A stretch of DNA of 29,137 nt. Source: a virus. This document shows positions 2,547 through 17,924 of the stretch, piece by piece. Location of the stretch: the IMG/VR virus record IMGVR_UViG_3300025168_000446, positions 1-29,137 of that record. The stretch is one strand, 5' to 3'. The notes beneath the pieces are model-generated. The model made no database searches, was not told the DNA's origin, and was given only the letters and a program-made list of their open reading frames with translations. Positions within the stretch are counted from its first letter, which is position 1. Every line of letters begins with the position of its first letter. The position numbers and the translations under genes are program-made.

Positions 2547-3131
2547 ATGCCTAATCAATTAAACTCAGGGACTAAAGATGCCCTACAAAAAGGCGACACT
2601 TTATTAGTGAACGCCCGTCAAATCGCTAACGGTAAAATACAATTAGCATTTGCAGAAGTACTTACATCTTCTAAAGTAGAAAATGTTTTATCTATGCTAA
2701 ATAAATCAGATGATAGATTTAGTTCTAAAGCTCGTATGTCTTGGCAAACAGCTGAACCATTAGATGCTCAAGAATTGCTTGGTATCAACTTTGGTCCAGA
2801 TGCACCTTGGTATGACTCTGAAAAAGGTAAAATGCTTGACTTAGATGTTTTCAACCCTACTATGTTTGATAAACGTTGTAGAATAATTGTAACAGAAACC
2901 TTACAAGGTACTGAATGGCAATTAGAAAACTTAAAAAAGTCTGCTAAACGTAAAGGTAAAGAAGGTGACTTCATCACTCACAATGGTAACTATATATTTG
3001 CTAACACAGATGTTATTCTTACTAATGGTGCTACTGATGATTTACACACTTATCTAGAACCTGACTCAGTTGCTATTGCTTCTCCTACAGTTGTAGAAGC
3101 ATTTACAGCTGATGATATGCAGATGATGTAG
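2547..3131 (+). CDS. hypothetical protein, 194 residues
   Basis: Not recognised with confidence. It appears to be a soluble, mixed alpha/beta protein with an acidic C-terminus that ends in ADDMQMM. The middle (about 110-140) is basic (LENLKKSAKRKGKEGDF), and the rest has alternating beta-like segments (LLVNARQIANGKIQLAFAEV), so a nucleic-acid-binding barrel is possible. It is isolated between two hairpin-bearing spacers (2453-2546 and 3132-3208), which suggests its own expression control. Its third codon positions favour T and A like the neighbours, so I see no sign of recent transfer. Confidence 0.65.
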   Translation: MPNQLNSGTKDALQKGDTLLVNARQIANGKIQLAFAEVLTSSKVENVLSMLNKSDDRFSSKARMSWQTAEPLDAQELLGINFGPDAPWYDSEKGKMLDLDVFNPTMFDKRCRIIVTETLQGTEWQLENLKKSAKRKGKEGDFITHNGNYIFANTDVILTNGATDDLHTYLEPDSVAIASPTVVEAFTADDMQMM

Positions 3132-3141
3132 TATTAATTAT

Positions 3142-3194
3142 GTTAAGACAGTGTAAGGTTTTATTTAACGCCTTGACGCCAACACTGTCTTAAC
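3142..3194 (+). other. long perfect hairpin between two genes
   Basis: A perfect 13-bp stem, GTTAAGACAGTGT (3142-3154) with ACACTGTCTTAAC (3182-3194), is continued by AAGG 3155-3158 with CCTT 3171-3174. The 3' side runs into TTAATTTATTTATT and then the ATG at 3209. It could terminate the 2547 transcript weakly, or be a 5' leader structure of the 3209-5726 operon. A 17-codon frame (3140-3193) spans the hairpin but is probably incidental. Confidence 0.6.
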
Positions 3195-3208
3195 TTAATT
3201 TATTTATT

Positions 3209-3448
3209 ATGAGCTATATGAAATGGATTTATGCTATGGTTGTAGATAACAGCTATAATATATTTAAAATGATGTATCAACAAGCAGTTGAGAAAAATAT
3301 ATCAGCGTTTATGTTCCAAGGTTCGGAAATAAAAACAGCTTACGCTAAAAGTGTATGTGAATATGTAGACAAGCATTGTATGCCTGAATACGATCAACAC
3401 TTACAAGATACTGTTAATGACCGTGAACCAGATGAATTTACAACATGA
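3209..3448 (+). CDS. hypothetical protein, 79 residues
   Basis: Unrecognised small protein. Methionine- and tyrosine-rich near the N-terminus, helical in the middle, with an acidic C-terminus (DTVNDREPDEFTT). It contains two cysteines without a clear metal-binding pattern and no transmembrane segment. Its stop overlaps the polymerase start as ATGA (3445-3448), so it is co-translated with the DNA polymerase. A polymerase accessory role is a guess from position alone. Confidence 0.65.
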   Translation: MSYMKWIYAMVVDNSYNIFKMMYQQAVEKNISAFMFQGSEIKTAYAKSVCEYVDKHCMPEYDQHLQDTVNDREPDEFTT

Positions 3449-5334
3449 TATATTTTGTTACTTATAATAACGACATGTTCAACAATGACTTGTATTTTCA
3501 AGCTACTGTTGAAGATGCCGTTAATTATTGCAAAAGCAAGGAAATTCTTGCAGTTGATACCGAGACCACAGGTCTTAATTTTGTGCGTGATGACATAACT
3601 ATGTTTCAAATTGGTGATGATACTCATCAATATGTTATAGATGTGCGTGATTATCCATTAGTAATGTTTAAAGATATTTTAGAATCACCAAACATACTTA
3701 AGATATTTCACAACGCTAAATTTGACCTTAACTTTATCCGATACCATTGTGACATCAAATGTCAAAATGTGTATGACACTATGCTTACGGAAAAAGTTAT
3801 AAATTGTGGTAAAGAACTCAGTAACAGTCTTAAAAACACTGTTAAACGTTACCTCAACATTGAGCTTAACAAAAATGTGCAATCATCATTTATAGGTGGT
3901 ATAAATAAACAATTTACTACAAATCAAATTGTTTATGGTGCTAAAGATGTTGAATATCTTATTCAGATACACAACAAACAACAAGCACCTATCATTGTTA
4001 ACAAGCTTAAAAATGTTGTAGAACTAGAGAACCGTGCTGTGTTAGCATTTGCTGACATAGAATTTAACGGTATTTCCCTTGACTCAGACAAATGGATTAA
4101 ACTTAGCAAGAAATCATACTATGATGCTGAACTTTTGCAAGATATACTCAATCACTATGTGGTTGAAGACCATCGTATGCAAAAGTTTATACCTAAGTAT
4201 GTGCAAGGTGATTTGTTTGACACTGTTGAGAAACAAGTAGATATAAATTGGGATTCACCAAAGCAAGTGCTTGATGTATTTCAATGTATTATACCTAAAC
4301 TTGAAAATGTAAATGGCAAATCCATGTACAAGTATAGAAACAAATATCCTCTTATCAATGATTATGTTAAATACAAAGAAAAGATGAAGATAGCTACAAG
4401 CTATGGTGAAGCTTTCTTGAAGAATATTAACAAAGATGGTAAGATACACACTAGTTTCAATCAAATACTTGATACCGGTCGTGTAAGCAGCTCTAAGCCT
4501 AACATGCAGCAAATACCTGCAGATAATGCGTTTAGAAATTGTTTCACTGCACCAGATGGTTGGTCGTTTGTAAGTGCTGACTATGCTTCCCAAGAACTGA
4601 ATGTCATAGCTTTTGGTAGCCAAGATCCCGTGTGGATGAAAGCATTAGAAGATGGTCAGGACTTACACTCAACCTGTGCACAGCTTGTATACAAGAATGA
4701 ATGGGATTTTGCTGCTGAATATGATTGCTCTTACTTAGTTAATAAAAGTAAATGTAATTGTCCAAAGCACAAAAACCTACGTACTAATGTAAAGACTATT
4801 AACTTTGGTCTCGCATATGGTATGGGTCCTAACAAGCTTGCTGATACTCTCAACATATCTAAAGATGATGCAAAGCAACTCATTGAAGATTACTTCAGTG
4901 CGTTCCCTAACATCAAAGGCTTCCTTGAAAAGCTAGCTGATTTTGGTAAACAATATGGTTATATTAAAACCTTCCCACCGTTCAACCGGCGTCGTTGGTT
5001 TGTTAACTGGTTCCCAAAGATATGGAGTGATGAGTCAGCATCAATGGAGCTTAGTAGTATTGAACGTGCATCTAAGAATACACCAATTCAAGGTGCATCA
5101 GCAGATATGACTAAGCTTGCACTTGTATACATTTATGAGTATTTAGCTGATAAACAGCTGCCTGTTAAAGTTGTAATGACTGTGCATGATCAAATAGATA
5201 CTATCTGTGCAGACAGATATGTAGATAAATGGTCAGAAACTCTTACATATTTAATGGAGAAAGCAGCTAAGAAGGTAGTAACTAATGGTTTGCTTAAAGC
5301 AGACGTAAACATCAGTAAAGTATGGGAGAAATAA
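3445..5334 (+). CDS. family A DNA polymerase with 3'-5' exonuclease, 629 residues
   Basis: Replicative DNA polymerase similar in size and plan to T7 gp5. The proofreading domain shows Exo I DTET (D38, E40), Exo II NAKFD (D94) and Exo III YGAKD (Y164, D168). The polymerase domain shows TGRVSSSKPNMQQIP, motif A SADYASQELN (D379), motif B RTNVKTINFGLAYG (R446, K450, Y458) and motif C VHDQID (H581, D582). All catalytic carboxylates are present, so it should be active. An insertion between motifs A and B contains C428, C437, C439 and H442, which may bind zinc; this is unusual for the family. The gene overlaps both neighbours (4 and 13 bases), placing it in one operon with the DnaA-like, winged-helix and helicase genes. 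Confidence 0.97.
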   Translation: MIYFVTYNNDMFNNDLYFQATVEDAVNYCKSKEILAVDTETTGLNFVRDDITMFQIGDDTHQYVIDVRDYPLVMFKDILESPNILKIFHNAKFDLNFIRYHCDIKCQNVYDTMLTEKVINCGKELSNSLKNTVKRYLNIELNKNVQSSFIGGINKQFTTNQIVYGAKDVEYLIQIHNKQQAPIIVNKLKNVVELENRAVLAFADIEFNGISLDSDKWIKLSKKSYYDAELLQDILNHYVVEDHRMQKFIPKYVQGDLFDTVEKQVDINWDSPKQVLDVFQCIIPKLENVNGKSMYKYRNKYPLINDYVKYKEKMKIATSYGEAFLKNINKDGKIHTSFNQILDTGRVSSSKPNMQQIPADNAFRNCFTAPDGWSFVSADYASQELNVIAFGSQDPVWMKALEDGQDLHSTCAQLVYKNEWDFAAEYDCSYLVNKSKCNCPKHKNLRTNVKTINFGLAYGMGPNKLADTLNISKDDAKQLIEDYFSAFPNIKGFLEKLADFGKQYGYIKTFPPFNRRRWFVNWFPKIWSDESASMELSSIERASKNTPIQGASADMTKLALVYIYEYLADKQLPVKVVMTVHDQIDTICADRYVDKWSETLTYLMEKAAKKVVTNGLLKADVNISKVWEK

Positions 5335-5726
5335 ATCAACCAACTACTATTGAAGGCAGAGCTAATGAAACTTACGTAATCACACCTTTTGATTATATAT
5401 TTAAAGGTATTCGTAAAGAACTGCATGTAACTAAAGAGCAGATAATAAGTAGAAAAAGAGATAGAAATATAGTAGAAGCTAGACAAATGTTTTGTTTGTT
5501 AGCTAGAAGATTTACTAATAAAACTTCTGTACAAATAGGTAAAGCTATTAATAGAGACCATGCTACTGTACTATATTCTGTCTCTTCTATGGATAGTCTG
5601 CTTAAGTTTACTAAAAGATTAGCTATTGCTAAAAATTATATTGAAATGGACCTTGTACCTCAATTAGGAAAAGTTGAGGAGGTTAGAATTTGTGAATGTT
5701 GTAAACAACCAATCTTAAATGAATAA
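5322..5726 (+). CDS. stand-alone DnaA domain IV-like DNA-binding protein, 134 residues
   Basis: Residues about 40-95 match the DNA-binding domain IV of the bacterial initiator DnaA. Visible features are a basic helix (SRKRDRNIVEARQM, with R54 of the conserved RQ pair), a second helix (LARRFTNKTSVQIGKAI) and the signature RDHATV (78-83), which corresponds to RDHTTV. In DnaA this signature contacts the DnaA box in the major groove. The AAA+ ATPase and domains I-II are absent, so it can bind sites but not oligomerise or melt DNA in the DnaA manner. The C-terminus adds a small knuckle CECC (124-127) not found in DnaA. It overlaps the polymerase gene by 13 bases. It may mark the phage origin, recruit a loader, or compete with host DnaA. 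Confidence 0.8.
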   Translation: MGEINQPTTIEGRANETYVITPFDYIFKGIRKELHVTKEQIISRKRDRNIVEARQMFCLLARRFTNKTSVQIGKAINRDHATVLYSVSSMDSLLKFTKRLAIAKNYIEMDLVPQLGKVEEVRICECCKQPILNE

Positions 5727-7150: not shown

Positions 7151-7181
7151 TTTGTAGGTATGAATATTTTTATTACATTTG
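7151..7181 (+). promoter_or_regulatory. Bacteroidota-type promoter for the helicase/SPL operon
   Basis: TTTG at 7151-7154 is separated by 19 bases from TACATTTG at 7174-7181. This fits the primary sigma consensus of Bacteroidota (TTTG, 19-21 bases, TAnnTTTG). It lies in the only sizeable gap in the replication core (7131-7223), about 40 bases before the start at 7224. Transcription should begin near 7188. The -7 element overlaps a DnaA-box-like site by two bases. Confidence 0.5.
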
Positions 7182-7188
7182 TGGATAC
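7180..7188 (-). promoter_or_regulatory. near-consensus DnaA box in a candidate origin region
   Basis: Read on the minus strand, 7188-7180 is GTATCCACA, eight of nine matches to the DnaA box TTATCCACA. It lies in the A/T-rich gap 7131-7223 (long runs of A and T on both sides), directly upstream of the putative loader and DnaB genes and downstream of the operon encoding the DnaA domain IV-like protein. Only one good box is visible, so this is a candidate regulatory site or origin element rather than a proven origin. Confidence 0.35.
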
Positions 7189-7223: not shown

Positions 7224-7775
7224 ATGATTGTTGAACTAGATTTAAATATGCTTAAAGAGGTAGGTATGAGTCCTGATGACTTTACCTACCTTTATCTAGT
7301 TTATAAGAAGGGCAATAAATACAACCCACAGCTTAATCTTAAGCCAAACTTAGACAAACTTCAAGAGGAAGGTTACATCAAACTCGGTGATACAACAGAA
7401 AATCATGTTATTAGACACAAGTTTTTAGATTTATTTCTAGCAGACTTTGACAAGATGTTCAACGAGTTGATGTTAACCTATCCTATGAAGGTAAACTCTG
7501 ATAAAGGTGTCCGCATTTTACATGCTAAAGATCCTAACTCTAAGTCAAATCAAAAAGCAAAAGCTCGTTACAAAAGAATTGTTGACGGCAAGCCTCATGT
7601 CCATAAGAAGATAGTAGCTTGCCTAAACACCCAGCTAAAATTGGAGCGTAACAACTTAGGCTACATGCAAAACTTAGAAACATGGATTAACAATCATACT
7701 TGGGAAAAGTATGAAAATTTAGATGAAAATGACACACGAGACAAAACCAAACCACGAATCACAAGATCTCTTTAA
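7224..7775 (+). CDS. hypothetical protein, possible helicase loader or replisome organiser, 183 residues
   Basis: I do not recognise the family. The first half (MLKEVGMSPDDFTYLYLVYKK to LQEEGYIKL) has the look of a winged helix: a helix, a short turn and an 'EEGYIKL' wing strand. The second half is basic (SKSNQKAKARYKRIVDGK) and ends in a helical, tryptophan-containing tail. Phage helicase loaders are often encoded immediately before DnaB, and this gene overlaps the DnaB-like gene by 53 bases, so a loader or initiator role is a reasonable inference from position. The upstream ATG at 7219 hits a stop after one further codon, so ATG 7224 is the start. Confidence 0.65.
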   Translation: MIVELDLNMLKEVGMSPDDFTYLYLVYKKGNKYNPQLNLKPNLDKLQEEGYIKLGDTTENHVIRHKFLDLFLADFDKMFNELMLTYPMKVNSDKGVRILHAKDPNSKSNQKAKARYKRIVDGKPHVHKKIVACLNTQLKLERNNLGYMQNLETWINNHTWEKYENLDENDTRDKTKPRITRSL

Positions 7776-8697
7776 AGAAAAAGGATTTCATAGCATAGCA
7801 GACTCAGTAAATACCTCACTTAATGAGATAAAGAAAGGTATGCTTGGGCAGCGTGTGGTTTACCCCACTAAGTGGATAAGATTAAACAGAAACCTACTAG
7901 GTGGTCTGCAACCTGGCAAAATGTATGTCATAGCAGGTCGTCCAGGTGTAGGTAAAAGCGCATTCAGTAATCAGATGATCTTCGATCTCTTAGATACTAA
8001 CTCAAAGAAAAACTTAATGGTATTGTACTGGTCTTTCGAGATGCCTGGCCATCAGCAAATATTACGTGCTGGTGCTAAGGATGTCAAGAAAGAAGTGATG
8101 GATTTACTATCAGTACAAAACAAGTTAAGACAAGACGAGTATGATCTATATGCAGAGAAAGTTGCTGCTTATACTGAATATCCTATTTATTTTAATAACG
8201 TACCTAAAGACATAACATTTATTAAAAGGACTAATGCTGAGATAGCAGAGAGCTACCCGGACACTTTGGTCATAAATGTTTACGATCACTCTAGGTTAAT
8301 ATTAGCTAACGCCGATACAGAATTGCAAAAACTAAACCAAATATCAAAAGGGTGTATGTACATGCAAGCTAAATTTGGTGTTATTAATATACTGTTATCA
8401 CAATTAAATAGGAATATAGAACAAGAACATCGTGCCCGTAATCAGTACCAACCAATGCTAACAGATTTGTTTGGTGGTGACAGTATAGGTCAGGATGCTC
8501 ATGTTGTTATGATGCTACAGAGGCCATTTGACCTCTACGGTATTACAGATTTGTATTGCGATGAAGAGCCGGAAGGTTTGTTAGCGGTACACATCGAGAA
8601 AAACAGGGACGGCATGTTAGGTATGATACCATACGAAGCTGAACTTAGTACATTCACTATAAACGAAAGAAAATATGTTAATAACAAAAGTAAATAG
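7723..8697 (+). CDS. DnaB-like replicative helicase, 324 residues
   Basis: SF4 hexameric helicase of the RecA fold that unwinds the fork 5'-3'. Visible motifs are Walker A GRPGVGKS (72-79), H1a WSFEMPG, the Walker B region VINVYDHSRLI (D188), H3 SQLNR (226-230), DLFGGDSIGQDAHVV (arginine-finger region, as in 'GxIEQDAD') and EKNRDG near the C-terminus. It is shorter than bacterial DnaB (about 450) and lacks the N-terminal primase-binding domain, as in several phage helicases. The true start may be ATG 7729, two codons later. It overlaps the preceding gene by 53 bases and the next by 23. Confidence 0.92.
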   Translation: MKMTHETKPNHESQDLFKEKGFHSIADSVNTSLNEIKKGMLGQRVVYPTKWIRLNRNLLGGLQPGKMYVIAGRPGVGKSAFSNQMIFDLLDTNSKKNLMVLYWSFEMPGHQQILRAGAKDVKKEVMDLLSVQNKLRQDEYDLYAEKVAAYTEYPIYFNNVPKDITFIKRTNAEIAESYPDTLVINVYDHSRLILANADTELQKLNQISKGCMYMQAKFGVINILLSQLNRNIEQEHRARNQYQPMLTDLFGGDSIGQDAHVVMMLQRPFDLYGITDLYCDEEPEGLLAVHIEKNRDGMLGMIPYEAELSTFTINERKYVNNKSK

Positions 8698-9532
8698 AAA
8701 AGCCCTTGACATTAAAACAAGCGGTAGATCTACAGACTTTATTACACCTTCTTTTGGTCATGGCTGTTTGTACGATTGCAGTTACTGTTACATGAAACGT
8801 AACAAACCTAAAGGATTAACGATAGCACAGAATACAGGAGATATACTTACAGCAGTAAATAACCACGCATTCTTTACACACGTTAACAAACCTAATCAAA
8901 CACACGCGCAACACACTACTTACGACATTAGTTGTAACGAGGACTTTGCATTGCACCTTAGACATCACGACTGGGAGAACATCTTTGAGTTTTTTAGAAC
9001 TCACCCTATAGCCATGGGCTCGTTCGCTACCAAGTACGTGAACCCTAAGTTGATTGAGTATGACCCTGAAGGTAAAATACGAATACGTTTTAGTCTTATG
9101 CCTCAGCATATGGCTACACTTCATGAGCCTGCCACATCTAAAATTATTGATAGAATTAAAGCTATTAATGCATTTATAGATGCAGGGTATGACGTACATG
9201 TTAACTTTAGTCCTGTTATTATAACAGAAACATGGCTAGAGGATTACAAGCAGTTGTTTGGAATGCTGAATGATTATGTAGATTACAAAAAGCAAGTTCT
9301 TGCAGAAGTTATATTTCTAACTCACAACGAGAACAAGCACAGAGCTAATCTTATAGATAAACCGAATGCAGAAGCACAACTGTGGACACCAGATATACAA
9401 GAGGATAAGATCTCACAGTATGGAGGGAAAAACATTAGATACGAAAGACATCTTAAACGAGAATTAATTAACCAATTTACTAACCTTCATGATAACATTA
9501 TACCATGGAATAAAATAAGATACATATTTTGA
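8675..9532 (+). CDS. radical-SAM enzyme resembling spore photoproduct lyase, 285 residues
   Basis: The radical-SAM cluster motif is GCLYDCSYCY (C31, C35, C38), which binds a 4Fe-4S cluster that cleaves S-adenosylmethionine. The rest follows the spore photoproduct lyase plan: a YDISCNED segment with C87, a RIRFSLMPQHMATLHEPAT segment, and AINAFIDAGYDVHVNFSPVI. In the Bacillus enzyme a fourth cysteine about 40-50 residues after the cluster is the hydrogen donor; here C87 is 49 residues after C38. The protein has exactly these four cysteines. The expected activity is direct reversal of a thymine photolesion (5-thyminyl-5,6-dihydrothymine) in DNA. The phage substrate is unproven. It overlaps the helicase gene by 23 bases, tying it to replication. 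Confidence 0.85.
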   Translation: MLITKVNRKALDIKTSGRSTDFITPSFGHGCLYDCSYCYMKRNKPKGLTIAQNTGDILTAVNNHAFFTHVNKPNQTHAQHTTYDISCNEDFALHLRHHDWENIFEFFRTHPIAMGSFATKYVNPKLIEYDPEGKIRIRFSLMPQHMATLHEPATSKIIDRIKAINAFIDAGYDVHVNFSPVIITETWLEDYKQLFGMLNDYVDYKKQVLAEVIFLTHNENKHRANLIDKPNAEAQLWTPDIQEDKISQYGGKNIRYERHLKRELINQFTNLHDNIIPWNKIRYIF

Positions 9533-9801
9533 AAAAAGGATACTACGATTACGAGCCAATAGAAGGTAAACCAGAGTTTATTTCTAAAGGAAGACTCCCT
9601 GAATACAACAGAGAGAGAAGAGATGAAAAATTAAGAAAAGAAGAAGAAGCAAAGAAATCTAAATTTGTGACTGATGATGTATTTACATTACAATTTGGGT
9701 TTACATACCCTAAAACATATGCTAAATCATCTACAATAAATAGTGTGCCATACCCTAAAAACTTAGGTGCTAATGGCAAAATGAGCAGAAGGCATGGGTG
9801 A
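9529..9801 (+). CDS. hypothetical charged protein, TTG start, 90 residues
   Basis: Unrecognised. The only good start is TTG 9529, which overlaps the lyase stop as TTGA, mimicking the ATGA junctions elsewhere. The first half is very charged (EYNRERRDEKLRKEEEAKKSKF), and the second contains several prolines and tyrosines, ending in GANGKMSRRHG. It is probably partly disordered. It is the last gene before the structured gap 9802-10059. The non-ATG start means low or coupled expression. Confidence 0.6.
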   Translation: MKKGYYDYEPIEGKPEFISKGRLPEYNRERRDEKLRKEEEAKKSKFVTDDVFTLQFGFTYPKTYAKSSTINSVPYPKNLGANGKMSRRHG

Positions 9802-9803
9802 TT

Positions 9804-10040
9804 AAGAGTTAAACCCTGATAATGACAGTTACTCTTTGTAAGACTTCAGAACAAAACCTGTCAGCCTACATATTGCTAACACATAACTAGTGGTAATGTC
9901 TCAACAATACCAATAAGACCCCAGGTTATGTTGTTAGCTATTATACGATGAGCAAGCTGCGTGAGTGCTGCATACTTTTGCTGTAATTGAGGGGGAGGGG
10001 GTTATAAACTTGGTCGTCTATGCGGTCTTCCCCCAATTAC
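9804..10040 (+). other. structured non-coding region with several long hairpins
   Basis: The 258-base gap 9802-10059 lacks a credible gene but is full of pairing. TGACAG 9823-9828 pairs with CTGTCA 9858-9863. GCTAACACATAAC 9875-9887 pairs with GTTATGTTGTTAGC 9925-9938 (one bulge) and encloses TGGTA 9891-9895 with TACCA 9908-9912. AGCAA 9951-9955 pairs with TTGCT 9978-9982. GTAATT plus GGGGGA (9983-9996) pairs with TCCCCC plus AATTAC (10029-10040) across a GA bulge. The last hairpin runs into TTTATTTAAATT and the ATG at 10060. AAGAGT 9804-9809 with ACTCTT 9831-9836 is another option. It is likely an intergenic RNA, terminator-plus-leader, or replication signal; I recognise no family. Confidence 0.5.
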
Positions 10041-10059
10041 TTTATTTAAATTATATATT

Positions 10060-10293
10060 ATGGAATGGATTCCAGTTATAGTAGTAGGAGCTGTATTTGG
10101 CTTTATACTTTACCACACGTTAAAATCACCATTTAACCCAGAAGCTTATGAAAAAGAACAAAGGGCTATTATCGAAGATTCTCTGCGAAAGCCAAAAAAG
10201 AGGAAAAAGTATAAAAGTCGTGCAAAGGCTACTAAAGTTGAAGCACCACATCTCAGTAAGTCTAAACGTGCTAAAAAAAAGAATAAGGCATGA
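10060..10293 (+). CDS. small membrane-anchored basic protein, 77 residues
   Basis: A single N-terminal transmembrane helix (about residues 3-20, WIPVIVVGAVFGFILYHT) is followed by a strongly basic cytoplasmic tail (KKRKKYKSRAKATK ... SKSKRAKKKNKA). The basic tail could bind DNA or RNA at the inner membrane. It is the first gene after the structured region and overlaps the Sak4-like gene as ATGA (10290-10293), so it may tether recombination or replication complexes to the membrane. This role is inferred only from its topology and position. Confidence 0.7.
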   Translation: MEWIPVIVVGAVFGFILYHTLKSPFNPEAYEKEQRAIIEDSLRKPKKRKKYKSRAKATKVEAPHLSKSKRAKKKNKA

Positions 10294-11466: not shown

Positions 11467-12246
11467 ATGGCAATTAAATCAAACGCAAGTACGCAAGAAG
11501 TAGTAGGCTCAGGAATGAAACTATACTCAGGATTAACTAACGTAAACGTTATAGCAGTTAACCCTACAATGGCTGAATTACACGCCCTTGACATTAAAGT
11601 TAAGAGTGAGCCAAATTATGAAGTAGCCTTCAGTGATCAAGAATACAACAAAGTAGTGTTCTGGTTGGGTAATGAAGATACTAAAGTTAAATTAGAGGTA
11701 TTGGTACAACCAAAAGCTCGTGTATCTCAAAATGGTAAGAACCAGTACATTAATGCTATTGGTCAAACTACATGGTCAGAAGGGAAACCTACATTTGACT
11801 GGTGGAAAGCTACCGGTGAGAGACATGCTTTTGTTGGTGAAGAAACTCTTATCAACTTTGTTAAAGCGTGGGCTAACGTAGCCAACGGCGATGACGTAAG
11901 CTTTGAAACAGGTAAGAAAATCTCTAACGGTGACGTATCAGAGATCAAAGCGCTTGTTAGCGTGTTGAAAGACAATCAAGTACGTGTATTGGTAGGTGTT
12001 AAAGATGACAAGTACCAAACTGTATACACTAAGCACTTTGGTCGTGTTAAACCTCAACGTGATGATTTCTTTGTTCGTAACTTAAACGACGACTATGGAT
12101 CATTCAACGCTGACTTTAACGCTGACTTAGCATGGGGTACGCATAATCCAACCATTAACTTGGTTACTCCTGACTCGAAAGAGGATGAAGACTGGACTAT
12201 GCCAGACAAGCCTCTTAACAGTACAGAAGACGACTCTCCGTTTTAA
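11467..12246 (+). CDS. SSB-like single-stranded DNA-binding protein, 259 residues
   Basis: The body is rich in beta-type segments (LEVLVQPKARV, RVLVGVKDDKYQTVYTKHF) and aromatic residues suited to stacking on single-stranded DNA. The C-terminus is disordered and acidic and ends EDDSPF, like the DDxxPF tip of bacterial SSB that recruits repair and replication proteins. The length is larger than E. coli SSB (178) and close to T7 gp2.5 (232). It lies between the Sak4-like and primase genes, as expected. The family assignment rests on the tail, composition and context, not on a clear OB-fold motif. Confidence 0.7.
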   Translation: MAIKSNASTQEVVGSGMKLYSGLTNVNVIAVNPTMAELHALDIKVKSEPNYEVAFSDQEYNKVVFWLGNEDTKVKLEVLVQPKARVSQNGKNQYINAIGQTTWSEGKPTFDWWKATGERHAFVGEETLINFVKAWANVANGDDVSFETGKKISNGDVSEIKALVSVLKDNQVRVLVGVKDDKYQTVYTKHFGRVKPQRDDFFVRNLNDDYGSFNADFNADLAWGTHNPTINLVTPDSKEDEDWTMPDKPLNSTEDDSPF

Positions 12247-13247
12247 TGATTGCATCACGAAGTAGTGATGATTACCTGCATACAGATGTCATACTTAGTA
12301 AAATTACTGAGTATGACATTTTCAGGTATTATATCAGAGGGTTTAAAGAGCTTAACAAAAAGTTCTGTAGCGAGTTACGTGAAGACAATACTCCAACCGC
12401 TGCTATATATGTATGGAAGAACGCCTTATTATACAAGGACCACGGTCATCCAGAACATACCTTTAACTGCTTCAGATATATCCAAGCATCATTTAATTGT
12501 GATTGGATAACTGCGCTGCGTATGGTAGACAGAGATTTTGCTTTAGGTCTTTCTTATACTAAAGACGACGGATTATTTTCTATGGGAGCTCAGGGTGTTA
12601 AACGAAAACAACCTGATCTCGTAGAAAAACTTACACTTATACGTAAGAAACGTCGTAAATGGAATAAGGACGATGCAAAGTTTTGGTCTAAATATTATAT
12701 AAGTAAAGATATTTTAGTTAAATTTGGCGTCGAACCTATAGATTATTATTGGGTCAACGAACATAGATTTAGCTGTAAAACAATCACTTACGCATATAAG
12801 TTTGGTCAAAGATTTAAAATCTACGCACCAGAAGAAACAGAGCGCAAATGGACAAGCAATGTTAAAGCAGTAGACACTCAAGGTTGGAATCAATTGCCTG
12901 AACAAGGTAATTTAGTTATTCTAACATCTTCGTTAAAAGACATCATGACTCTATATTCTGCAGGGTATCCCGCAATTGCTATGCAAAGCGAGATGCAAAT
13001 ACCAGCAGAAAAAGTAATAGAGAGTCTTAAGGAAAGATTTGCAAAAATCTTGGTTCTTTATGATAATGATTATGATAAAGCTACCAATCCAGGACAGATG
13101 ATGGGCAACAAGATCTGTATGAAGTATGGCCTAATAAATGTGTGTATTCCTAGTGAGTATGAATCGAAAGATCCATCTGACCTAGTTAAGAATACAAACA
13201 TAGCTATACTAAATCAGATAATTGATGAACAAAGAGGAGATAGTTGA
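12246..13247 (+). CDS. DnaG-like TOPRIM primase, 333 residues
   Basis: RNA primase for lagging-strand synthesis. The N-terminal region (about 40-95) has the layout of the CHC2-type domain (FCSELREDNTP ... LLYKDHG ... FNCFRYIQ), but only C41, C75 and C85 remain, so the zinc site is degenerate. The TOPRIM domain begins NLVILTSSLKDIMTLYSAGYPAIAMQSEMQIP (222-253), followed by VLYDNDYDKATNPG with D273 and D275. The glutamate usual in the first TOPRIM motif (VEGxxD or TEGxxD) is S here (TSSLKD, D232). It follows the SSB-like gene with a one-base stop/start overlap and precedes the SbcD-like gene. It is shorter than bacterial DnaG and has no helicase-binding tail. Confidence 0.8.
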   Translation: MIASRSSDDYLHTDVILSKITEYDIFRYYIRGFKELNKKFCSELREDNTPTAAIYVWKNALLYKDHGHPEHTFNCFRYIQASFNCDWITALRMVDRDFALGLSYTKDDGLFSMGAQGVKRKQPDLVEKLTLIRKKRRKWNKDDAKFWSKYYISKDILVKFGVEPIDYYWVNEHRFSCKTITYAYKFGQRFKIYAPEETERKWTSNVKAVDTQGWNQLPEQGNLVILTSSLKDIMTLYSAGYPAIAMQSEMQIPAEKVIESLKERFAKILVLYDNDYDKATNPGQMMGNKICMKYGLINVCIPSEYESKDPSDLVKNTNIAILNQIIDEQRGDS

Positions 13248-14773: not shown

Positions 14774-15120
14774 CAAGACATGAGAAAGTAAATGCTCTCC
14801 AACGAGGAGACATAATAGCCGTTGTTCAACACAACGGCTTTTCTTTTGCTATATTTTGGGGATGGGATGGTAACGGTTATACATCAGAAGATGGTCAAGA
14901 TCGTAAAGCTTGGTATTATACAATACCTGAATTTACATTATCAAAATCCGGTATGAAAGAGTATTTTGATAAGATTAGAGCAGGAGAAAATAAATGGTTT
15001 CCTGGCGCTATATCTTGGACAACTAATTACGCTGAATTAAAAGTATTACCTATACCTAAAACCTATCTATCAGAATATCAACAAGAGTATGTTAATTTAT
15101 TAAATAACAAATTAAGATGA
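14770..15120 (+). CDS. hypothetical protein, 116 residues
   Basis: Unrecognised. It begins TRHEKVNALQRGDIIAVVQHNGFSFAIFWGWDGNGYTSEDG, a beta-rich, tryptophan-containing segment suggestive of an SH3-like barrel, and is helical at the C-terminus (SEYQQEYVNLLNNKLR). The longer frame could start at 14737, but ATG 14770 overlaps the preceding stop as ATGA, the usual junction here, so I prefer it. Its own stop overlaps the rIIA-like start as ATGA (15117-15120). No catalytic motif is visible. Confidence 0.65.
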   Translation: MTRHEKVNALQRGDIIAVVQHNGFSFAIFWGWDGNGYTSEDGQDRKAWYYTIPEFTLSKSGMKEYFDKIRAGENKWFPGAISWTTNYAELKVLPIPKTYLSEYQQEYVNLLNNKLR

Positions 15121-17924
15121 GTATAAAAACCATTGACACACAGATTAAAGGCTCTAAAGGGATCGAGAAAAAGATCAACGAAGGGGCAAAGAGAATGGTC
15201 TTTGACATTCTGCAATCAACGCAGTATTCTATGCCAATTTCGAGTACCATCCGCGAGCTCACAACTAATGCTTGTGATTCACAGAGGGAGAAAGAAATAG
15301 CATTAGAAATACTAAGTGGAGAGAAGAAAGCAGAAGACTATTACATTACGCGCTCAGGCGCACAGTACGAAGACAGTAACTTTAATGCAGAGTACTACAA
15401 TGTTTTACATCTAGACAAGCATAAGAATAAGATAGATCTTACTTATATTGAAAGTGAAGGTGTAGGCTATTGTGATACATTTGCAGTAATGGACTACGGC
15501 GTAGGTATTGGTGCACGCAGACTAGAGGGTGTCCTAGAATTAGGATATTCTACTAAGCGTAACACATCAGAAAACTTTGGTGCGTTTGGCTTAGGTGCTA
15601 AAGCAGCATTGTCTACCGGCGTTGATTTCTATACTATAGAAACTGTCTACAACGGAATGAGATTTAAATGTAATTGCTACAATTACAAGACTGATTTCAT
15701 TATACCAGCTTTCAATGTAGAAGCAGGTAAACAAAACCCATTTGTTACATTCTCAGATGGTACTAAAGTATATTATGAAGAATCAGATTCTAAGAATTAC
15801 ACGGAAGTAAGCTTCAGAACTAAGAAACATAACAGACGTAAGTACAAAGAAGCTATAGAAGAGCAACTAAATTACTTAAACAACGTTAACTTTTCAATTG
15901 TAGGCGAAAGCGGCTATGTAAATGAAGTTAACTTTAAGAACGATGTGATTTACAGCTCAGAGCATCTTATTATCAGTGATGGCTATACATATTCTAAACC
16001 ACATGTACTTGTGGTAAAGAATCCGCAAGCTGAAACAGGTATTAACTATGGTCACATAGATTTCCGAGAATTAGAAATGGAGCAACTGTATGGCGCTATT
16101 GCATTCAAATGTCCTATGAGACAGGTTGTAGTAGATGACAACGGCGTGGAAACAGTTATACAAGAAGGTGTTGACGTAACTCCATCGCGTGAGAAGGTAA
16201 TATGGAACGAAGCTACTAAAGCGTATGTTCAAGGTATTATTAAGAAAGCTGCGATAGAGGCTACTAATGTAGTCCAGGAAGAGCTAGACACTAAGGATTT
16301 CATTGATTGGATTTCTAAGACTCGTGCACTTGTTAGTGGTGCTCGTAGTGAGAATCGTGTTCTAAACAAACTATCTAATATTATAGATAAAGACATGATT
16401 AGTCCTACGTTCCCTGGTGATAAACGTATACGATACGCAGTTCCTACTAAGTTATTCGAAGGATTTAAGATTACTAAGCTTTTATATGAAGTTGAGAAAG
16501 GTAAATTTAAATCTGTAAGAGATGACAAATTAGTAGTGTGGGGCGGTATAGAGCCTAAGCATTTCTATTTTAAAGAGAATGTATCTTTCAATAGATTGAC
16601 GGATGCATATCTTATTAAAGGTGGAGAACAGGAATGTCGTCCTTCAGTACTTACTCTGGAAGATCTAGATGCTAAGTTTGACAGTAAGATTGCTATAGCT
16701 CAAGGAGAAGGTAAGCTTGCATTAACTAAAGAAAAGAATAGAGTTGCTCGTAAACGTGCAGCTGTACTTAAGTACTTTAAAGAGTCTGAGTTTTATCATT
16801 CTTATGATGATGTAGTAGTACCTGAAGACTGGACTACGGAGTTCACTACAGAAGAAGATCAAGCTATGGAAGTATCCAAGTTTGATAACATTTCTCCTGC
16901 AGAGCGCCGTGAGATAGAAAAGCGTATGGTTGCTTATTCTCTTAGATTTGATAAGAGACGTAATGATAATAAACAGTACACCCTTGACAAGATAGAGCCA
17001 AAGGCCAAAGATCTTATGGAAAGCGAGTCTCGTATTTATTATTGCACTAAAGCAGATGAAGATTTAATGCATCTAGCTGCTAAAATCTTACATGTGCAAG
17101 CTCCTAGCTTTAAAGAAGTTTACCCAGAGAATACATGGTCTAGTTGGGATACTGATCAGCAGCACCCAATATTCTATTATGAAGAACCAGCTGTTTCTCT
17201 TAGAGAGACATATGGAAGCAACAAAGGTAATTTCTATGACTGGACTGCAAAAACAGTTAAGACATGGGATACGCCGCAGTTGATTAGGGTAAGTGAAAAT
17301 AAAGTTAAATACATCAAGAAGAATCCAAATTGTAAACACATTAGTGAGTTCTTCTTACAAATGAATGATAAAGGAGGATACACAATGGATGATTCAATGA
17401 TTACATGGTTTACAGCTACTAAAGTAACTGAAATACAAGATCTTAAATTCTTATCAAGCTTTAAAAGGATTAATCCTGGGCTTCACAAGATCTACAAGAA
17501 AGTTATTAAAGCTAGAGAAAATTCATTTGAATACTACAGACACAGAAATCTAGACGAAACTGATGTGTTTAAGCAAGCTGAAAAGCTTATGGAGTTTCAA
17601 TTGTATTGTAAACAAGTAGAAAGCGAGGCTAACTCAGCTGAGCTAATTAGTAACAAAAGTAAGGAATTGTTTGTTCTATCTGATATAGGAGAATGTGTAG
17701 GCGTTAACATGGAGGTGCTAGATATGTATAACAACATACTAGAATTTTCTGAAGATGTTAAGCACTTACTTTCTGCTATAGAAGGTATAAACGAAAATAA
17801 ATCTATGACTCTAGACTTAGAGAAAGAGATAATTTCTTACTTAGAATGTAAAGGTAAAAACGAGTGGGATGTCAGTGACGTCCTGCCGGAAGAACCTGAA
17901 TTAGAGGAAGATAGCGCACAATAA
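15117..17924 (+). CDS. rIIA-like GHKL ATPase, 935 residues
   Basis: A large protein whose N-terminus is a GHKL (gyrase B/Hsp90/histidine kinase/MutL) ATP-binding domain. The N box is IRELTTNACDS (E47, N51, D54), G1 is DYGVG (126-130) and G2 is ENFGAFGLGAKAALS (152-166). These match T4 rIIA, which protects against host and prophage exclusion systems. The remaining 600 residues are unrecognised. The next gene is rIIB-like, matching the T4 rIIA-rIIB order. It is much longer than many small GHKL domains, so MutL or Hsp90 is unlikely. A stem-loop lies over its stop codon. Confidence 0.85.
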   Translation: MSIKTIDTQIKGSKGIEKKINEGAKRMVFDILQSTQYSMPISSTIRELTTNACDSQREKEIALEILSGEKKAEDYYITRSGAQYEDSNFNAEYYNVLHLDKHKNKIDLTYIESEGVGYCDTFAVMDYGVGIGARRLEGVLELGYSTKRNTSENFGAFGLGAKAALSTGVDFYTIETVYNGMRFKCNCYNYKTDFIIPAFNVEAGKQNPFVTFSDGTKVYYEESDSKNYTEVSFRTKKHNRRKYKEAIEEQLNYLNNVNFSIVGESGYVNEVNFKNDVIYSSEHLIISDGYTYSKPHVLVVKNPQAETGINYGHIDFRELEMEQLYGAIAFKCPMRQVVVDDNGVETVIQEGVDVTPSREKVIWNEATKAYVQGIIKKAAIEATNVVQEELDTKDFIDWISKTRALVSGARSENRVLNKLSNIIDKDMISPTFPGDKRIRYAVPTKLFEGFKITKLLYEVEKGKFKSVRDDKLVVWGGIEPKHFYFKENVSFNRLTDAYLIKGGEQECRPSVLTLEDLDAKFDSKIAIAQGEGKLALTKEKNRVARKRAAVLKYFKESEFYHSYDDVVVPEDWTTEFTTEEDQAMEVSKFDNISPAERREIEKRMVAYSLRFDKRRNDNKQYTLDKIEPKAKDLMESESRIYYCTKADEDLMHLAAKILHVQAPSFKEVYPENTWSSWDTDQQHPIFYYEEPAVSLRETYGSNKGNFYDWTAKTVKTWDTPQLIRVSENKVKYIKKNPNCKHISEFFLQMNDKGGYTMDDSMITWFTATKVTEIQDLKFLSSFKRINPGLHKIYKKVIKARENSFEYYRHRNLDETDVFKQAEKLMEFQLYCKQVESEANSAELISNKSKELFVLSDIGECVGVNMEVLDMYNNILEFSEDVKHLLSAIEGINENKSMTLDLEKEIISYLECKGKNEWDVSDVLPEEPELEEDSAQ

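Follow-up and report, generated by a model that had tools for sequence, protein, structure and literature searches.

A stand-alone DnaA domain IV gene, probably exchanged singly, at the polA locus of a crAss-like phage

What use would a phage have for the DNA-reading part of the initiator DnaA, if it carries that part alone? The question is raised by the gene of a 134-residue protein, P0001, in a stretch of viral DNA of 29,137 nucleotides (IMG/VR record IMGVR_UViG_3300025168_000446), hereafter called the window. A preliminary description had read P0001 as a DnaA domain IV standing alone, with a cysteine knuckle at its C-terminus, and had considered three roles: bringing a loader to the phage origin, competing with host DnaA for its boxes, or repressing transcription. 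The reading frame and the positions of its two motifs, RDHATV (residues 78-83) and CECC (residues 124-127), are as described there (Table 1).

Table 1. Features of the DnaA domain IV gene and of its surroundings in the window.
Feature	Position	Strand	Basis
PolA, DNA polymerase I family, 629 aa	3445-5334	+	PHROG DNA polymerase, E 1.4e-109
Stand-alone DnaA domain IV gene (P0001, 134 aa)	5322-5726	+	ORF, PF08299, fold match
Bac_DnaA_C domain, residues 24-88 of P0001	5391-5585	+	Pfam and six-frame family search
R46, counterpart of E. coli R399 (TTA minor-groove reader)	5457-5459	+	Alignment to 1j1v
R54-Q55, counterparts of E. coli R407-Q408	5481-5486	+	Alignment to 1j1v
R78-D-H-A-T-V83, start of recognition helix (E. 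coli RDHTTV, 432-437)	5553-5570	+	Alignment, conservation in 34 proteins
CECC tail, residues 124-127; conserved form C-x-[HC]-C	5691-5702	+	Alignment of relatives, A1
Winged-helix protein, 86 aa	5719-5979	+	phrog_1123, E 5.7e-22; HTH_24
SF2-type helicase, 388 aa	5964-7130	+	PHROG DNA helicase, E 5.5e-40
183-aa protein just before DnaB	7224-7775	+	phrog_9474, replication initiation protein, E 0.0019 (weak)
DnaB-like replicative helicase, 324 aa	7723-8697	+	PHROG, E 2.6e-35; NCBIfam DnaB, E 3e-34
Primase, nearest named relatives crAss-like phages	12246-13247	+	Similarity search

P0001 is almost certainly a DnaA domain IV on its own. The Pfam profile search matched its residues 24-88 to Bac_DnaA_C (PF08299) with E 6.9e-18 and 64.9 bits, above the curated cut-off of 31.5 bits, and its best sequence match in the PDB is domain IV of E. 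coli DnaA (1j1v, E 1.1e-6). An AF2 model, for which an alignment of 34 window and locus sequences was used, shows the fold of the DnaA DNA-binding domain (DBD), with helix-turn-helix and basic loop; its block-mean pLDDT, 89-96 for residues 21-110, falls to 51-71 across the C-terminal ~24 residues. When this model was compared with known structures using Foldseek, it matched the DnaA-DBDs, each on its box DNA, of M. tuberculosis (3pvp, TM to target 0.90) and of E. coli (1j1v, TM to target 0.87), and the top 12 fold matches in the PDB were DnaA without exception. Profile and fold together rule out a chance likeness or membership in another helix-turn-helix family, and the identity proposed in the preliminary description is thus borne out by both, and by the relatives: no unrelated helix-turn-helix family was the best profile match, and the predicted fold is that of DnaA domain IV, at TM 0.87-0.90. 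The NCBIfam DnaA models touch P0001 only with their domain IV end (TIGR00362 at positions 348-427 of 437, with 56 bits versus 343.9), which indicates that P0001 lacks domain I and the AAA+ ATPase, the latter as had been claimed; a hidden AAA+ domain in the reading frame can be discarded on the same comparison. Unlike the DnaA proteins of E. coli and M. tuberculosis, P0001 has none of domains I-III, and its 134 residues do not make up a full initiator. The start codon is supported by an N-terminus, MG[EK][IV], that is kept in the relatives. On the opposite strand of the gene, stops were found in the frame read.

Whether such a protein could still read a DnaA box depends on a few residues. In E. 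coli DnaA, R399 reads the TTA part of the box in the minor groove, a helix formed by residues 434-451 reads TnCACA, and the changes R399A and T435M make box binding defective (PMC5742627). Counterparts of R399, D433, H434 and T436 are all present in P0001, as R46, D79, H80 and T82, respectively. The E. coli residue numbers were set on the alignment from the length of that protein. R54, G73, H80, T82 and V83 do not vary among 34 phage DnaA-IV proteins, and each of R46, R78 and D79 is conserved in at least 90% of them. The position of T435 differs from E. coli, being alanine (A81) in P0001; the same alanine is found in a Bacteroidales DnaA, the full-length protein encoded in a Paludibacteraceae MAG (L118, NRDHATV), and A81 is therefore no phage oddity, and the reading head of P0001 looks host-like. 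Because the base-reading residues are kept in the phage proteins and A81 also occurs in a full-length DnaA, phage DnaA-IV proteins are likely to bind the normal DnaA box. A natural variant was seen in contig L113 (2649-3008), where the recognition helix reads RNHSTV, with Asn at the counterpart of D433.

P0001 differs from domain IV of DnaA in two additions, about 20 N-terminal residues and the C-terminal C-x-x-C tail. The cysteine knuckle of the preliminary description holds in its outer positions and needs refinement in between: eight close relatives (alignment A1) all have C124 and C127, while residue 126, a Cys in P0001, is usually His. CECC is thus the local version of a fuller pattern, C-x-[H/C]-C-[K/N]-Q. 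A C-x-x-C tail is also carried by a second allele type at the polA locus, and it is missing from the other phage DnaA-IV groups listed. The tail offers two to three potential metal ligands per chain, in a part of the model where confidence is low. Metal binding is putative, and two chains might jointly form a metal site.

The gene turned out to be less unusual than had been implied, as stand-alone DnaA-IV genes are common in phages and already annotated. Examples are Cellulophaga phi19:3 gp13, Tenacibaculum Gundel_1 Gundel1_36, Olleya Harreka_1 Harreka1_24, Octadecabacter DB virus 2 gp52, and a gene of Manatee Spring phage ctNMl277. Like P0001, these "DnaA proteins" are stand-alone Bac_DnaA_C domains (98-145 aa), and several lie within early or replication gene runs. 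Pairwise identity is low (28-44% over the matched parts) and, unlike P0001, these proteins lack the CxxC tail, do not overlap polA, and do not belong to crAss-like phages. Two short patterns taken from alignment A1 retrieved 265 relatives in IMG/VR, of which 80 were kept; nearly all are short and of single-domain size, and a few have 204-251 residues. Inspection by eye suggested a VRR-NUC-like C-terminus in two of the longer proteins (L036 and L084) and a DUF4406-like N-terminus in another (L098), and L102 seems to be a further longer protein with an extra domain. PF08299 was matched by 41 of 41 phage members of alignment A2 at E ≤ 0.01. A limited test, a single-sequence tblastn, detected no DnaA-IV match in the Crassvirales records of the phage collection.

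Reuse of the DNA-binding domain of DnaA outside DnaA has a precedent in Y1 transposases of TnpA-REP subclass 2.1.2, which have a C-terminal Bac_DnaA_C-like domain (PMC6006769); there the domain is fused to a nuclease, whereas in P0001 it stands alone. Short helix-turn-helix proteins that resemble the domain are also annotated on alphaproteobacterial plasmids (Xanthobacter, Beijerinckia, Methylocapsa; H79, H80, H82). The literature searched contained no paper on a phage stand-alone DnaA domain IV and no experiment on any phage DnaA-IV. What is new here is a crAss-like lineage with a cysteine-tailed DnaA-IV gene that overlaps polA and has apparently been exchanged.

The surroundings of the gene identify the phage and bear on its role. 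PolA, the primase and a 982-aa protein of the window have their best matches in crAss-like records, and the layout, in which genes of one orientation form the replication block and large genes on the opposite strand come after it, is like that of Cellulophaga phi14:2; by its nearest replication genes and this layout, the window phage is classified as crAss-like (Crassvirales). As the preliminary description had it, the gene lies inside the DNA polymerase operon: it overlaps polA by 13 nt, an arrangement also found in relatives, and is itself overlapped by the winged-helix gene by 8 nt, which in turn overlaps the SF2 gene by 16 nt. This arrangement would place DnaA-IV for production together with the phage PolA. 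The 183-aa protein is a candidate helicase loader. In L009, a phage that otherwise differs, DnaA-IV is likewise followed by a relative of the winged-helix protein (31% over 86 aa), and the nearest named relatives of the winged-helix protein itself are from mycobacteriophage (54% identity for Pharb), a considerable jump in hosts.

Other features of the window can be summarized briefly. A radical-SAM protein with a match to spore photoproduct lyase (PF20903, E 5e-28) adjoins DnaB (8675-9532, plus strand); its relative in contig G002 sits elsewhere on that contig. A 935-aa RIIA-like lysis-inhibitor protein with a hint of a GHKL ATPase is encoded at 15117-17924 (plus strand) of this crAss-like phage. 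A gap of 259 bases (9801-10060), between the genes at 9529-9801 and 10060-10293, holds a strong inverted repeat, aattgaggggga ... tcccccaatt, and a 22-base inverted repeat (3133-3203; 91% complementary) between the genes at 2547-3131 and 3209-3448 is likely a terminator. Searches of the window for RNA families and tRNA gave none, and no anti-phage-defence match was obtained.

The history of the gene was examined by comparing the window with sister contigs (L111/L032, L112, L113/L123 and L114/L121). DnaA-IV shows only about 62% nucleotide identity to the sisters, and two alleles can thus be distinguished at the locus. Just downstream, identity is 93-97% for the winged helix, 84-91% for the SF2 helicase, 85-88% for the 183-aa gene and 92-95% for DnaB; polA, just upstream, has 78-84%, and genes further upstream have 62-65% in two of the sisters. 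At the protein level, DnaA-IV of the window is nearest to that of L006, from the other crAss-like group (62%, versus 51-54% for the sisters), and the downstream proteins (winged helix, SF2, 183-aa protein and DnaB) show the reverse, with 87-100% to the sisters and 40-67% to that other group. Trees of SF2 and DnaB unite window and sisters in a clade at 100/100. For DnaA-IV, an AU test of that clade gave p 0.087, above 0.05, so the case for exchange rests mainly on the contrast in identity, about 62% at the gene against 84-97% just downstream. The simplest reading is that DnaA-IV was probably replaced as a single gene, with both ends of the apparent exchange near its borders; extreme divergence of this gene alone is a less likely alternative. 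Every relative that has polA shows the end of PolA, ...WEK-stop, overlapping with ATGGGA[AG]AA. L009, in which the stretch available has no polA relative, keeps MGEI, together with WER-stop in the polA frame and the winged-helix neighbor. A possible interpretation is that this WER-stop is the scar of a transfer, even if four codons are weak evidence alone.

If P0001 reads DnaA boxes, the next question is where such boxes are. The window contains no exact box (TTATNCACA), and neither do the sister contigs G007, G008 and G009; over 24 other contigs as a whole, exact boxes are in no clear excess over a reversed-word control. In the crAss-like clade, 4 were observed against 14.5 expected, compared with 11 against 12.9 for the reversed word. 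Depletion of the box was dropped as strong evidence, since it is mild: the box ranks only 201 of 10,773 patterns, with 200 other words more depleted, and codon effects may account for it. Clusters of boxes were sought in 400-base windows, with 60 simulations per contig and E. coli oriC as positive control. The scan picked out oriC (0 of 60 simulations reached the observed maximum), and in none of 19 DnaA-IV phage contigs, mostly fragments, did it reveal a clear oriC-like cluster. Eighteen of these are ordinary, with at least 20 of 60 simulations reaching the observed maximum; G001 is marginal (5 of 60), where two boxes lie 80 bases from each other close to the start of the contig. Contig G002 (88.5 kb) has no cluster, its GC-skew minimum near 73 kb included. 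The window and the related contigs, partly incomplete, thus give no clear sign of a canonical phage oriC. A possible box, GTATCCACA, in the gap between the SF2 and 183-aa genes (7180-7188, minus strand) was discarded, as it is not conserved in sister phages. At 3031-4050 of L007, upstream of the replication block, a tRNA-Met and a small ORF precede a gene-free stretch of ~600 bases, with no Rfam match besides the tRNA; part of this stretch, with a 42-base exact repeat, is found at the start of L003.

Because the phage genomes have no clear box cluster, host boxes are the likelier main targets, and the reading that we tentatively favor is that P0001 acts in trans, mainly on boxes of the host, as a competitor or regulator. 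P0001, which is devoid of ATPase, self-assembly and helicase-loading domains, would bind double-stranded DnaA boxes, perhaps as a dimer held together through a metal site common to the two C-x-x-C tails. On the host chromosome it would find boxes at oriC and at DnaA-controlled promoters, and would displace or block host DnaA there. Host re-initiation would thereby be limited, or DnaA-dependent transcription changed, while the phage relies on its own polymerase, primase and helicase. This reading draws support from the Bac_DnaA_C profile, the DnaA-DBD fold, the conserved box-reading positions and the host-like A81, and from the scarcity of boxes: none exact in the window and three sister contigs, depletion in the clade, and no clear cluster. 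Exchange of the gene singly also fits a trans-acting protein, as no neighboring cognate site is needed. Other points speak against it: most contigs are fragments, so that a box site could lie off-contig; box depletion is only mild; and the gene belongs to a replication operon, with replication genes common nearby in other phages (no baseline), which suits a role in phage replication. A more specific version, that P0001 is a dominant-negative DnaA that occupies host oriC boxes and stops re-initiation, with few phage boxes to avoid titration and the gene exchanged as a single-gene cassette, is rather unlikely.

The gene's location could instead mean that P0001 marks the replication start of the phage, at a single site or a few, canonical or variant, and recruits the replisome there through the 183-aa protein and DnaB, thus filling the role of a missing replisome organizer. 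We regard this as possible, if somewhat doubtful. It would agree with the overlap with polA and with the gene order of phi14:2 (Crassvirales), where, as in the window, the DNA polymerase gene is shortly followed by a candidate of this kind, the "putative replisome organizer" N356_gp019, with one 50-aa ORF in between; a Rep_Org has been named for crAss-like phages (PMC7886860), and N356_gp019 matches phrog_15090 (function unknown) and not the family of P0001. Elsewhere, DnaA-IV is at most 3 kb from a "DNA replication protein" gene in phi19:3 and Gundel_1, and among 94 neighbors at 27 divergent loci the commonest PHROGs include primase/helicase (10), DnaB-like helicase (5) and replication initiation protein (3), counts that have no matched baseline. 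The same idea meets difficulties in the lack of a clear box cluster, even on the 88.5-kb G002 with its skew minimum, and in the presence of two divergent alleles where the downstream replication genes are otherwise 84-97% identical. The proposal of the preliminary description that P0001 brings a loader to the phage origin is thus weakened in its canonical DnaA-box form.

Transcription offers a further role, which we consider unlikely: P0001 might repress or activate a few phage promoters in the manner of DnaA, acting with the adjacent winged helix. The helix-turn-helix of DnaA domain IV is sequence-specific (PMC5742627), and the two genes are also adjacent in the otherwise different L009; against this, the one intergenic alignment examined had no conserved box. 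That P0001 is a remnant or a chance resemblance without function is highly improbable, since only its short length speaks for this, while frame, base-reading residues and cysteine tail are kept in relatives at 50-63% identity, and every close relative that covers the locus has the gene, replaced and not decayed.

Action mainly on host boxes is tentatively favored over a site on the phage origin and over phage promoters. If P0001 binds boxes without a motor, it would be a simple handle of the phage on host replication initiation, and a natural DnaA domain IV inhibitor for microbiologists to study. A gene that overlaps polA and has apparently been exchanged makes one step of crAss-like replication, or of its contact with host initiation, directly testable.
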